In this document: positions 1-64,000 of the stretch, piece by piece
How the letters are laid out: every line of letters starts with the position of its first letter
Position numbering within the stretch: position 1 is the stretch's first letter
Assembly (NCBI GenBank): GCA_020634495.1
Contig: JACKBR010000009.1
Span: 58,955-122,954 of the forward strand
Length of the DNA: 64,000 bases
Reading direction: 5' to 3'
Origin: Ardenticatenaceae bacterium
GTDB taxonomy: Bacteria > Chloroflexota > Anaerolineae > Promineifilales > Promineifilaceae
Made by a program: the position numbers and the translations under genes
Notes under the pieces: generated by a model
What the model was told of the DNA's origin: nothing
Seen by the model: only the letters and a program-made list of their open reading frames with translations
Databases searched by the model: none

Positions 1-1215
1 GTAGCGGTCGGCCCCGTGCCCCTGCATCGCACCCAGGCTGCCCATGCCGCGATACACTTTGTAGCGTCGCCCTTCGTACAGGATGATGTCGCCAGGGCTT
101 TCTTCCAGACCGGCCAGCATGGAACCGAGCATGACGGCATCGGCCCCGGCAGCCATCGCTTTTACGATGTCGCCGCTGTACTTGATGCCGCCATCGGCGA
201 TGCAGGGGACGTTGTGTTTGTGGCATTCGGCGGCGCTTTCCAGTACGGCCGTTAACTGCGGCATCCCCGCGCCAGAAACCACCCGTGTGGTGCAAATCGA
301 ACCAGCGCCAATACCAATCTTTACGCCATCCGCCCCGGCTTTCACCAAATCGCGTACGCCTTCGGCCGTGGCCGCGTTGCCCGCGATGATGGGCAGGTTC
401 GGGTATCGATTTTTGGCTTCGCGCAATGTTTGCAGCACCAGCGCCGTGTGCCCGTGGGCGGTGTCTATGACGGCCACGTCTACGCCAGCTTTCACCAGCA
501 AGTCCAGGCGAGCTAAACCTGAATCCCCCACCCCAATAGCGGCGGCACAAAGGAGACGGCCGTTTTCATCCGACGCCTGCATGGGGTAATTCACCTTCTT
601 CTGGATGTCTTTCACCGTGATGAGTCCCTTCAGGTAACCAGCCTCATCCACCAGCGGCAGCTTCTCGATGCGGTGGCGGTGCAAAATCTCTTTGGCTTCA
701 TCTAACGTGGTGCCCACCTGCGCAGTAATTAAACGGTCGCTGGTCATAAATTCAGAAACGGGCTGCGGCCCAGGCGTCACAAAACGAATATCCCGGTTGG
801 TGAGGATGCCCACCAGCTTGCCATCGACATCGGTGATGGGCACGCCAGAGATGTGGTAGCGACTCATCAACGCTTCGGCATCGGCCAGGGTGTTGTCTGG
901 GCGCAGCGTTACCGGGTCCACAATCATGCCCGCCTCCGACCGTTTAACTTTGTCCACCTCTTCTGCCTGCTCTTCCGGCGAGAGGTTGCGGTGAATGACG
1001 CCAATGCCGCCCAGGCGAGCCAGCCCAATGGCCAGCCGCGCCTCCGTCACCGTGTCCATCGCCGCAGACAGCAGCGGGATGTTCAGAAACAAATTACCGG
1101 CCAGGCGGGTTTTCAAATCCACGTTGGCCGGTAAGACTTCAGAATACCCTGGAGTTAGCAGGACATCATCAAATGTCAGCGCTAATGCGCCTACTTTTTC
1201 AGCAATTTCAGTCAT
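1..1215 (-). CDS. guaB: Inosine-5'-monophosphate dehydrogenase, 3' end beyond the window
   Basis: IMP dehydrogenase oxidises IMP to XMP with NAD+, the first committed step of GTP synthesis, in the cytoplasm. The ATG at 1213-1215 sits 8 bases after a GAGGAG ribosome binding site. The protein opens MTEIAEKVGALALTFDDVLL, typical of the family, followed by the LSAAMDTVTE segment. Two CBS domains fill roughly residues 95-215. The catalytic loop reads GAGSICTTR (about 279-325 in DNA), with the active-site Cys intact. The flap follows, with YRGMGSLGAM near the window start. About 405 of an expected 485-490 residues are present; the C-terminus lies outside the window. The upstream leader holds a 17-bp perfect inverted repeat. 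Identification is secure. Confidence 0.97.
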   Translation of the reverse strand, partial: MTEIAEKVGALALTFDDVLLTPGYSEVLPANVDLKTRLAGNLFLNIPLLSAAMDTVTEARLAIGLARLGGIGVIHRNLSPEEQAEEVDKVKRSEAGMIVDPVTLRPDNTLADAEALMSRYHISGVPITDVDGKLVGILTNRDIRFVTPGPQPVSEFMTSDRLITAQVGTTLDEAKEILHRHRIEKLPLVDEAGYLKGLITVKDIQKKVNYPMQASDENGRLLCAAAIGVGDSGLARLDLLVKAGVDVAVIDTAHGHTALVLQTLREAKNRYPNLPIIAGNAATAEGVRDLVKAGADGVKIGIGAGSICTTRVVSGAGMPQLTAVLESAAECHKHNVPCIADGGIKYSGDIVKAMAAGADAVMLGSMLAGLEESPGDIILYEGRRYKVYRGMGSLGAMQGHGADRY

Positions 1216-1243
1216 TCTTTTTGCTCCTCGTGTTCTTACGTGG

Positions 1244-1305
1244 AGACCCTAAGGGTTTTGCCCCTCGAGTGGTTTGATTTGAGGCAAACAAAACCCTTAG
1301 GGTCT
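1244..1305. repeat. 17-bp perfect inverted repeat in the guaB leader
   Basis: Arms 1244-1260 (AGACCCTAAGGGTTTTG) and 1289-1305 are exact reverse complements around a 28-base loop that can itself pair through GCCCCTC/GAGGC. It lies about 30 bases upstream of the guaB start, with no U-run behind either arm. It is therefore either a 5'-leader hairpin of guaB or an interspersed palindromic repeat, rather than a standard terminator. Confidence 0.6.
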
Positions 1306-1324
1306 GAACGCTAGCGATAATTAT

Positions 1325-1386
1325 AAACAAAAACCGAGCTTGCTAGATTGGCCATCTTAATTGGATGGCTCTTTTAACAAGCTCGG
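1325..1386 (-). terminator. Rho-independent terminator downstream of lgt
   Basis: On the minus strand the arms CCGAGCTTG (1378-1386) and CAAGCTCGG (1334-1342) pair around a second short stem (GCCATC/GATGGC, 1351-1369). A TTTTTGTTT tract follows (1325-1333). Position and orientation fit the end of the lgt transcript. Confidence 0.7.
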
Positions 1387-1445
1387 CTGCAAAGGTGCTA
1401 TTTTGGCTGGAATGTGTCGCCGTGGGAGGGCGGGTGCGGTGTTCA

Positions 1446-1557
1446 GTATTCAGTAATCGGTATTCAGTAATCGGTATTCAGTAATCGGTGTTCGGTAAAC
1501 GGTGTTCGGTAAACGGTGTTCAGTTACTGTTTACTGGTTACCGATTACTGATAACCG
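1446..1557. repeat. 14-bp tandem array flush with the lgt stop codon
   Basis: Six consecutive 14-bp units run from 1446: three of GTATTCAGTAATCG, two of GTGTTCGGTAAACG and one of GTGTTCAGTTACTG. Two units in the opposite orientation follow (1530-1557), so the array can fold back on itself. It ends three bases from the lgt stop codon. A related inverted repeat follows the helicase gene at 54353-54430. No spacer structure is present, so it is not a CRISPR array. Confidence 0.85.
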
Positions 1558-1559
1558 GT

Positions 1560-62330: not shown

Positions 62331-62387
62331 CGAATCAACAAAGTGACATGTGACAAGTACAGATAACGTTTTAATCGAAGGGATTTC

Positions 62388-63485
62388 TTAATCCAGCAAG
62401 AATTGTTCGATAGCACCCAAGGTGCTTTTGATGCGTTTCTGGCTAAGGCTGTAACATTTTGCACCCTCGCGCCACTTCTCTTCCAAATATCCCGAGGCGG
62501 TTAACTGCTTTAGGTGGCGAGAAGTAGCTGACTGGCTTAAGTTAAGCTGTGTCATAATATCCTTCGAGCACAGTTCACCGGCCTGGTTCACCAATTGCAC
62601 TATTTGCAGGCGGTTATCATCAGCCAACGCACTTAAGCGCATTAAAATTTCTGAACGGTTGAGATCAGGAGATTGGGTTGTGGTACCTTCTGGCAGCCTG
62701 GCACCAAAAAACAAATAAAGGTTATGAAAGTCACGAAGTGTGCCTAAGTACGGACCCAGATGAGCTGAAGGAACAAACACGACCCGGTCATAATCATGTT
62801 CCTGGATAATCTCGCGCCACGCTTCCGGGACATCCTGGTCAATAACCTTTTGCACGGCGTCAACAATCGGCAACCGCTGCAAATCCAGTTGGCGGAAGGC
62901 GTGGACAGCTTCCTTGAGCATGGGGTGGACGCGATCCCATTCGGCAGCAAAATAATCGAGCCACATTTCTCGTAAATGGCTAACAATTAACTGCTGCATG
63001 GCAGGTGGGTCCTTGAGCAAGGCGTAGGCTTGTGTTTCTATTTGCACATCGACACAATCTTCACGAAAGCGGGATTGCAAATAGTCTAAGTAGGTGCCCA
63101 ACGTGGCGATAATGTCGGTGGGCTGGTTGACTTTTATGGCATTGCTGCCCGTTTGGTTGGGCAACTTTACATAAACATTAAGGATCATGTCCCGCAGTGC
63201 CGTTGGCTCCTGCATAGCCAAATGATCCAAGTAGGCGGGGAAGCTGGCCCAACTTTGCCAGGGATGCACGGCAAAATGCAGCCCTTCCAGCACTAGAACA
63301 TTCTTATTGGCTTGTTGGGGTGTCAGGGAAACGGCCGTATCCACAATCCACTGGCTGTACCCTGATAAATCCTGGACGTTGTTCAACAGCATCATGCTGT
63401 GCAGCACATTATGGGCAGGCTCCAAACCTACCTCAATGTTTGTGCGGGAAGCTTTGCCGATAAATGTAGCATCAGGAGCGGGCAT
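62388..63485 (-). CDS. ArsR-type winged-helix regulator with a large N-terminal domain
   Basis: The 365-aa protein has an N-terminal region of about 265 residues of unknown fold (MPAPDATFIGKASRTNIEVG). An ArsR-type winged helix occupies about residues 278-355: ILMRLSALADDNRLQIVQLV and NLSQSATSRHLKQLTASGYL. No metal-binding Cys pattern like ELCVCDL is seen (ELCSKDIM has one Cys), so metal sensing is doubtful. The start at 63483-63485 follows AGGAT by about 6 bases. A perfect 11-bp palindrome lies 19 bases upstream, probably its own operator. A methyltransferase gene follows. The uvrB gene is divergent. Confidence 0.87.
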   Translation of the reverse strand: MPAPDATFIGKASRTNIEVGLEPAHNVLHSMMLLNNVQDLSGYSQWIVDTAVSLTPQQANKNVLVLEGLHFAVHPWQSWASFPAYLDHLAMQEPTALRDMILNVYVKLPNQTGSNAIKVNQPTDIIATLGTYLDYLQSRFREDCVDVQIETQAYALLKDPPAMQQLIVSHLREMWLDYFAAEWDRVHPMLKEAVHAFRQLDLQRLPIVDAVQKVIDQDVPEAWREIIQEHDYDRVVFVPSAHLGPYLGTLRDFHNLYLFFGARLPEGTTTQSPDLNRSEILMRLSALADDNRLQIVQLVNQAGELCSKDIMTQLNLSQSATSRHLKQLTASGYLEEKWREGAKCYSLSQKRIKSTLGAIEQFLLD

Positions 63486-63503
63486 GTTTTATCCTTTCTA
63501 AAA

Positions 63504-63531
63504 ATATCTACCCGAAGAAGCGGGTAGATAT
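63504..63531. promoter_or_regulatory. Palindromic operator candidate before the ArsR-type gene
   Basis: ATATCTACCCG (63504-63514) and CGGGTAGATAT (63521-63531) are perfect complements around AAGAAG. It lies 19 bases upstream of the regulator start. Palindromes of this size in this place usually bind the regulator itself. An RNA hairpin in the leader is the alternative. Confidence 0.65.
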
Positions 63532-63679
63532 GCACAAATTAGCATAAATGAATAATGTTGTCAACTCACTTATGCACAATATCGGGTTTCGCCCGTTTCT
63601 AGAGATGAGAATTTTCAGTATTGCCCACCTAATTTTTGCCCTTTTTCTGCCCTCCCTATGCCAAAATGTGATAGAATTA

Positions 63680-63693
63680 CGAACTTGTGTTCT
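63680..63693. promoter_or_regulatory. LexA (SOS) box upstream of uvrB
   Basis: CGAACTTGTGTTCT fits CGAAC-N4-GTTC, the same layout as the box in the lexA promoter (CGAACAAGTGTTCG), with one mismatch in the last base. It lies 58 bases upstream of the uvrB start, directly behind a possible -10 element TAGAAT (63672-63677). It should bring uvrB under SOS control. Confidence 0.78.
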
Positions 63694-63751
63694 GAAAGTA
63701 AAAATGCTAAATGCCTGCAAGAATCTGTGATAAAAAATAAAGAGGAACCCC

Positions 63752-64000
63752 ATGCCCAAGTTCCAAATACAATCTGATTTTGCCCCGATGGGCGACCAAC
63801 CCATTGCCATTGAAAAGCTCGTTGAAGGGCTGGAGAGCGGCGACAAATTCCAGACGCTGCTCGGTGCAACCGGCACCGGCAAGACGTTCACCATGGCCAA
63901 CGTCATCCAGCAAACGCAGAAGCCCACCCTGGTCATTGCCCACAACAAAACCCTGGCCGCCCAGCTCTACAGCGAGTTCCGCGAATTTTTCCCCAAGAAC
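63752..64000 (+). CDS. uvrB: Excinuclease ABC subunit UvrB, 5' part only
   Basis: UvrB is the damage-recognition helicase-like core of UvrABC nucleotide excision repair. The ATG at 63752 follows AGAGGA by about 6 bases. The first 83 codons are present: MPKFQIQSDFAPMGDQPIAI, then LLGATGTGKTFTMANVIQ with Walker A GATGTGKT at residues 38-45, and KPTLVIAHNKTLAAQLYSEF. The family N-terminus is unmistakable; about 580 residues lie outside the window. A LexA box lies upstream, as in many bacteria where uvrB is an SOS gene. Frame continues to the window edge. Confidence 0.96.
   Translation, partial: MPKFQIQSDFAPMGDQPIAIEKLVEGLESGDKFQTLLGATGTGKTFTMANVIQQTQKPTLVIAHNKTLAAQLYSEFREFFPKN

Follow-up and report, generated by a model that had tools for sequence, protein, structure and literature searches.

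The DNA analysed here is a stretch of 64,000 nt from an Ardenticatenaceae bacterium (contig JACKBR010000009.1; hereafter the window, meaning the stretch at its full length), which is densely covered with a palindromic octamer, ACGGCCGT. The copies are found in open reading frames (ORFs) of both strands and between them, and the landmarks of this field are as follows:

1..64000, in ORFs of both strands and between them: field of 111 ACGGCCGT palindromes, mean spacing 574 bp
245..252: first copy in the window
37933-37940 and 37955-37962: one of the two closest pairs, 22 bp start to start
45211..47877: longest copy-free stretch, from copy 45211-45218 to copy 47870-47877
50222..50314: three copies inside 93 bp (starts 50222, 50269, 50307), within ORF 49616-50830, which matches PF10117 (McrBC-type)
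55323-55330 and 55345-55352: the other closest pair, 22 bp start to start
63331..63338: last copy in the window

The longest gap would be ordinary for 110 gaps averaging 574 bp. The octamer is neither a gene nor a repeat family. A first-pass annotation had put its number at about 110, with one or two expected, and the count of 111 exact copies bears this out: 100 dinucleotide-preserving shuffles contained 0.99 copies on average and at most 4, and an order-3 Markov model predicts 0.83 copies if the octamer is masked in training (3.0 if it is not), so that such a model, named at the time as a possible explanation of the excess, does not account for it. By the same model ACGGCCGT ranks first among all 8-mers, and no other palindromic 8-mer in the window is over-represented as strongly. 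By ORF call, 103 copies are genic and 8 intergenic (1.82 per kb in coding and 1.06 per kb in intergenic DNA), and all frames are used (55/37/11, frame 0 being the commonest), as had been noted. The statement that most copies form the decamer AACGGCCGTT was too strong, as this holds for only 35 of the 111; T follows directly in 59% of copies and G in only 3%. Apart from this excess, several palindromes are strongly avoided in the window (GCCGGC, 1 observed vs 54-56 expected; GGCGCC, 2 vs 52; CTGCAG, 1 vs 23; GGGCCC, 1 vs 25), a pattern that restriction pressure would leave, and the degree of GCCGGC avoidance differs among the genomes of the order.

The excess extends far beyond the window. The UvrD protein encoded in it led to four close genomes from different assemblies (93, 85, 69 and 61% identity), and the four closest genomes hold 11,512, 12,866, 11,353 and 6,514 copies of ACGGCCGT, which disposes of the concern that a genome-wide count might lie near expectation; three remoter Chloroflexota genomes from this search hold 35, 31 and 39. 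With 800 copies per Mb as the line for an octamer-type genome, we classified 56 genomes of the order of genome G001, which we take to be Promineifilales and to include the window. The census gave 27 A-type genomes with ACGGCCGT (991-2102 copies per Mb), two T-type genomes with TCGGCCGA (G013 with 9,414 copies and G032 with 7,668; densities of 1207 and 1504 per Mb) and one G-type genome with GCGGCCGC (G047, 1505 per Mb, whose 12,040 copies are as many NotI sites), while 26 fell below the line. Three outer base pairs are thus placed on one CGGCCG core within a single order, and in many genomes a site occurs every ~500-1,000 bases. The spellings are nearly exclusive, as G013, G032 and G047 contain only 198, 85 and 83 copies of ACGGCCGT; intermediate genomes are G018 (437 per Mb), G051 (514 per Mb) and G014 (421 A, 323 T and 357 G per Mb). 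In a sample of 400 Chloroflexota genomes (3 in the order, 397 outside), in which the A spelling alone was counted, the densest genome outside the order carried ~95 ACGGCCGT per Mb (408 copies in 4.3 Mb). Among the genomes sampled, the octamer is confined to one order. Literature searches, judged by titles and abstract openings, brought up no report of ACGGCCGT as a genome-wide motif or of a highly iterated palindrome (HIP) in Chloroflexota.

Two observations stand beside this census. Genome G027 (loci L121, L194, L195 and L223) carries another palindrome, TGCCGGCA, in 3,665 copies per 4.0 Mb and just 14 copies of ACGGCCGT; the core of TGCCGGCA, GCCGGC, is the core of the order read backwards. 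Moreover, the 16.8-kb locus L125 (G033:C1) is devoid of octamers although G033 averages 1,470 per Mb; it may be foreign to this genome or have been binned wrongly, and counting octamers could help to check bin purity in the metagenome-assembled genomes (MAGs) of this order.

The core and the outer pair behave differently. Pooled A-type sequence (667 kb) contains 1,140 ACGGCCGT copies vs 15.8 expected, and one-base deviants are enriched solely at positions 1 and 8 (A to T 5.4-fold, A to G 2.7-fold, A to C 0.9-fold). The A-type core is rigid: its deviants show no enrichment, those by C-to-T change standing at 0.99-1.18 of expectation. The T-type sample (164 kb) has a 2.4-2.6-fold excess of outer deviants, with T to C (0.73) as the exception, and also an excess of one core deviant, C-to-T at position 2/7 (18 vs 7.5 expected, 2.4-fold). 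The G-type genome G047 is strict, with no enriched deviant and outer-pair ratios of 1.16, 1.07 and 0.44. The core also occurs on its own, as measured on small fetched stretches of 7 to 40 kb: CGGCCG is enriched 7-8.5-fold in G014, G051, G052 and G053 and 3.8-fold in G055 (20 kb sample), in all five without the outer preference of octamer genomes, weakly in G037, G040, G041 and G059 (1.5-2.2-fold), and not in the stretches of G020, G021 and G028 (0.7-0.9). On the other side of the octamer boundary, a directly following G is rare in the window, G001, G002 and G019 (3-5%) compared with G003, G008 and G009 (33-38%).

The octamer acts on the level of DNA and not of protein, because it is present in all frames and its amino-acid products follow the spelling. 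Read in frame 0, it gives TAV in A-type, SAE or SAD in T-type and AAA in G-type genomes. Consistently, TAV occurs 29.2 times per 10,000 residues in A-type proteins vs 5.0 in T-type, 5.1 in G-type and 2.8 in non-octamer samples, and SAE 18.5 times in T-type proteins vs 1.5-2.2 in the other samples. The first-pass annotation had argued that coding need cannot explain the octamer, which holds in view of the use of all frames, the intergenic copies and the replacement of TAV by SAE/SAD or AAA in T- and G-type genomes. It had also attributed the sharing of ETAV, NGR and RPF among unrelated proteins to the octamer; in A-type proteins this is right for ETAV (18-fold over chance, compared with 0.8-1.4-fold in T-type, G-type and non-octamer samples) and NGR (5.0-fold; TAV, 6.7-fold), but RPF reaches merely 1.7-fold. 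The octamer is hence a DNA mark that reshapes proteomes: A-type proteins contain TAV ~10 times as often as the non-octamer sample does.

Conservation at orthologous positions, a check proposed at the outset, was found in all three comparisons, which cover A-type pairs only and do not tell selection apart from biased repair. Of the window sites, 50 of 61 were intact in G001 (79% identity; 12.6-13.4 expected from frame-matched 8-mers), 59 of 71 in G002 (14.6-19.8 expected) and 18 of 43 in G003 (67% identity; 2.9-3.7 expected). Between the window and G001, identity per position is 0.88-0.97 inside the octamer and 0.67-0.88, near background, in the flanks. Of 58 octamers, 49 have retained their GGCC, compared with 103 of 249 GGCC occurrences elsewhere, so it is the full palindrome that counts. 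Sites also turn over: 17 of 35 G003 sites are non-octamer in the window. The two T-type genomes have 3 of 10 aligned sites in common.

In A-type DNA, the octamers are spaced more evenly than control words. The window and the A-type sequence together have 86 gaps of 8-80 bp where 131.5 are expected (ratio 0.65), below all of 40 control 6-mers in this gap class (mean ratio 1.12, minimum 0.86), and 21 gaps of more than 2 kb where 32.1 are expected. Having both fewer short and fewer long gaps fits a mark of which one site serves its neighbourhood. Helical phasing of gaps was not seen at 9-12 bp.

Phage contigs carry the octamer as well. A viral-contig scan for two octamers within 38 bp, a selection that favours dense contigs, yielded at least 120 stretches, and 19 of the 80 examined had at least eight times the expected number and at least four copies. 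Stretches that encode a terminase, a portal or a DnaB-type protein (L312 and L325, which share a contig, L356 and L372) contain 1.2-2.0 octamers per kb, and L323 contains 49 in 13.2 kb (3.7 per kb). With L379 (on IMGVR_UViG_3300033417_000002, like L323), L358 and L309, it belongs to a set of phage-like stretches at 2.8-3.7 per kb, about twice the host density; L323 encodes an antirepressor, a transglycosylase and an FtsK-like protein, and L309 has a DnaC-like gene.

The closest known parallel is HIP1 of cyanobacteria, GCGATCGC, which was described in 1995 (as referenced in PMC6604393) and whose function is still debated. According to PMC4390886, most cyanobacteria other than those of group C1 have such octamers at 300-2700 per Mb, and deviations from HIP1 are concentrated at positions 1 and 8; it has been reported as maintained by selection (Xu 2018, as cited in PMC6604393). 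In our cyanobacterial contrast loci L023, L036 and L068, GCGATCGC is likewise the top word. The octamer of the order studied here has much in common with it, being an octameric palindrome in genome-wide excess, with a density within 300-2700 per Mb and sites kept strongly and beyond neutral expectation. Deviations at positions 1/8 around a rigid core are clear in A-type genomes, mixed in T-type ones owing to the 2/7 excess, and absent in G047. The parallel drawn in the first-pass annotation is thus supported by excess, density, frame independence, core and outer pattern, conservation and the existence of alternative spellings. The octamer is however not HIP1 proper: its core is CGGCCG and not CGATCG, ACGGCCGT lacks GATC, whereas HIP1 goes with GATC and CGATCG methyltransferases, the phylum is another one, and 13 of the 30 octamer genomes gave no match to PF00145.

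Another parallel is given by the alternate HIPs of single cyanobacteria, for which Elhai 2015 (PMC4390886) lists TCGATCGA, GGGATCCC, GGCGCC, rCCGGy and GCsGC. There too the usual HIP of the clade is depressed while another GC-rich palindrome is abundant, TCGATCGA is an outer-pair variant, and genomes with CGGCCG only (G014, G051, G052, G053 and G055) have their counterpart in the hexamer GGCGCC. In contrast to these sporadic single genomes, the order studied here has three nearly exclusive outer pairs on one core, and no cognate methyltransferase could be assigned to its octamer. A further comparison is M.Ssp6803II, which makes GGm4CC and without whose mark suppressor strains had lower UV tolerance and DNA content (PMC6560206); GGCC is also the centre of the octamer, but outside of it GGCC is far less conserved here.

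Taken as a whole, we tentatively favour, at somewhat less than even confidence, a modification-coupled mark that is maintained for repair or genome upkeep. ACGGCCGT would be the highly iterated palindrome of the order, a functional analogue of cyanobacterial HIP1. A host protein would read it as a DNA-level mark by the common CGGCCG core, with the outer base pair (A..T, T..A or G..C) tuned by lineage, and a resident DNA-modifying enzyme would most likely either modify the site or take part in binding it. In that case methylation-coupled repair or strand discrimination, which Elhai put forward for HIP1, could create new sites and preserve them, and site creation would continue up to a saturating density of one per 0.5-1 kb. 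That there is a single host reader, that methylation is involved and that the benefit lies in repair or genome maintenance is what we infer from this pattern.

A modification enzyme acting on GGCC or an EagI-type site had been suggested as driver, and several families were considered. A 5-methylcytosine (m5C) enzyme was set aside as a general driver; it is unlikely because 13 of the 30 octamer genomes, as MAGs of unstated completeness, have no PF00145 match and A-type sites show no C-to-T excess. The suggestion keeps some ground in the T-type, where both genomes have PF00145 along with the C-to-T excess at 2/7, which leaves room for an m5C enzyme in these two. Beside this stands the ORF at 49616-50830, whose PF10117 match denotes a McrBC-type, 5-methylcytosine restriction component, in an order with 30 of 56 genomes lacking a PF00145 match. 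A Dam-like D12 enzyme (PF02086) is common in the order and occurs also in the octamer-free genomes G020, G021, G027 and G028; by their motif we take these sequences to resemble GATC enzymes, and for both reasons the enzyme was set aside. PF01555 (N6/N4 enzymes) gave no strong match in G001, G011, G018, G033 and G045, and the weak split matches there led to a conserved, solitary methyltransferase-like protein of ~650 residues with motif I, a Cys-containing insert and a DPPY motif IV.

Of the 56 genomes of the order, 43 have this solitary family (L259-L288; DUF1156/PF01555-like). Among the 400 Chloroflexota genomes, 5 contain it with an identity of at least 50%, 3 in the order and 2 of the 397 outside, and 11 further ones at 29-35%; its nearest named homologues belong to Candidatus Leptofilum (order Promineifilales in NCBI taxonomy). 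An alignment of 36 homologues (A1) contains the motifs LDPMMGGGTT and TDPPY, fitting a class I S-adenosylmethionine (SAM) fold, and the structure model (pLDDT 86.6) matches class I methyltransferases in Foldseek, with CcrM among the best. As Foldseek ranks Trm11 and CcrM level, and a second look with VIA was led by Trm14/Trm11, with CcrM absent among the 50 matches listed, the model resembles both CcrM and tRNA methyltransferases, and DNA is only a putative substrate. The protein reaches no NCBIfam equivalog cut-off. Its neighbours vary over the regions fetched from 20 genomes, the 14 families inspected look like ordinary genes, and no restriction partner was noticed there, although no search aimed at partner nucleases was made. 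The octamer itself is enriched, whereas the target of a restriction-modification system should be avoided. Labels cluster beyond shuffles on a methyltransferase tree of 28 rows, in which 4 of 32 loci (G046, G058, G042 and G013), missed by the motif filter or frame search, have no row and G032 and G033 stand as fragments. Besides, the T-type methyltransferase-like gene L300 (G032:C1:577272-579033) is split over two overlapping frames, which is either an assembly error or a broken gene. All five core-only genomes (G014, G051, G052, G053 and G055) lack the solitary protein, which suggests, but does not show, that this candidate has a part in fixing the outer pair. Tested as driver of the octamer across the 56 and the 400 genomes, it counts as a lead, but it is also present in 15 of the 26 genomes of the order below the octamer line.

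Several results weigh against a modification-coupled mark. Over the 56 genomes, neither PF00145, PF01555, PF02086 nor the solitary protein tracks the octamer cleanly: PF00145 is found in 17 of 30 octamer genomes vs 9 of 26 others (p 0.12), the solitary protein in 28 of 30 vs 15 of 26 (p 0.003, uncorrected for kinship), and the Dam-like PF02086, from a hand-made set, in 26 of 30 vs 13 of 26 (p 0.004), and since the latter two associations are equally strong, the solitary candidate is no better than Dam. Two octamer genomes, G004 and G045, lack the solitary protein, which may reflect assembly gaps, and the core-enriched G055 has no match to any of the four. Moreover, an in-place switch of spelling was not seen at any of 20 sites from G035 to G032, and of 137 T/G-type sites 6 fall on an A-type site; this test covered distant pairs with few sites, and one site was compared with several genomes and so enters the six coincidences repeatedly.

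Possible, though rather doubtful, is that the palindrome serves as the binding site of a methylation-free DNA-binding protein for nucleoid organisation, segregation or replication, with selection keeping one site per few hundred bases. SeqA and its GATC sites offer a comparable density. Palindromy would suit a dimeric binder, and the 8-bp footprint of conservation, the even spacing, the missing C-to-T excess at A-type sites and the fact that no methyltransferase family tracks the octamer cleanly all agree with it. Such a chromosome-only role does however not predict phage contigs at host-like or higher density (the hosts of these contigs are not established), and the exclusive switching of outer pairs would require thousands of sites to change together.

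Unlikely, in our view, is a by-product of biased mutation or mismatch repair that converts near-misses without any selected function. Elhai allows such an origin for exceptional HIPs (PMC4390886), and the presence in all frames and in phage contigs and the reshaping of proteins (TAV 29.2 vs 2.8) would follow from it. A context-free drive should nevertheless give Poisson spacing, whereas short-range repulsion was observed, and an intergenic density at least equal to the genic one, whereas 1.06-1.20 vs 1.78-1.82 per kb was found in the window and A-type sequence, with intergenic base composition uncontrolled. Vsr-like conversion would deplete T-containing near-misses, which stand at 0.99-1.18 of expectation in A-type sequence and at 2.4 for one T-type class.

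We consider it quite improbable that the octamer is a watermark for DNA uptake, spread with lineage dialects by biased transformation and recombination as a molecular drive. Neisserial DNA uptake sequences (DUS) likewise have a common core, occur about once per kb and resemble the octamer in spacing, and uptake sequences are not known to be perfect palindromes. Dialects of DUS are described for Neisseriaceae (PMC3630211), and the conservation of sites fits as well; the octamer, however, is a perfect 8-bp palindrome where an asymmetric motif would be expected, and a role in uptake gives phage contigs no need to carry it. A signal of self-recognition, similar to Chi or linked to defence, through which site-rich DNA escapes degradation, might account for phage-like contigs with up to 3.7 octamers per kb (L323), ~2 times the host density, but seems very improbable given that the octamer is palindromic, unlike the asymmetric and strand-biased Chi sites, and that these contigs, with hosts not established, were chosen for two nearby octamers. 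Lastly, an artefact of codon usage, amino-acid composition or assembly, to which the prevalence of frame 0 (55 of 103) might point, is refuted by 111 copies vs 0.83 under the masked model, by the copies in all frames and intergenic DNA, by SAE/SAD and AAA in place of TAV in T/G-type genomes and by the agreement of 27 separate genomes, the four closest being from different assemblies.

The octamer could also be an order-specific watermark of two layers, with the CGGCCG core set by an invariant reader and the outer pair by a partner of evolving specificity; we hold this reading to be improbable, if less so than the rivals above. If it were true, whole genomes would switch their spelling between ACGGCCGT, TCGGCCGA and GCGGCCGC, resident phages would follow, some lineages would add a tenth-base preference, and the octamer would be a self-mark for repair or DNA acceptance.

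The order presents an apparent independent origin of a HIP-like mark, with three exclusive outer pairs, core-only genomes, octamer-free genomes and phage contigs side by side. These contrasts within one order are what comparative genomics requires to trace the reader, and what a test between selection and biased repair calls for. Different species using different spellings on a common core could thereby open a new way to learn what genome-wide marks are for.

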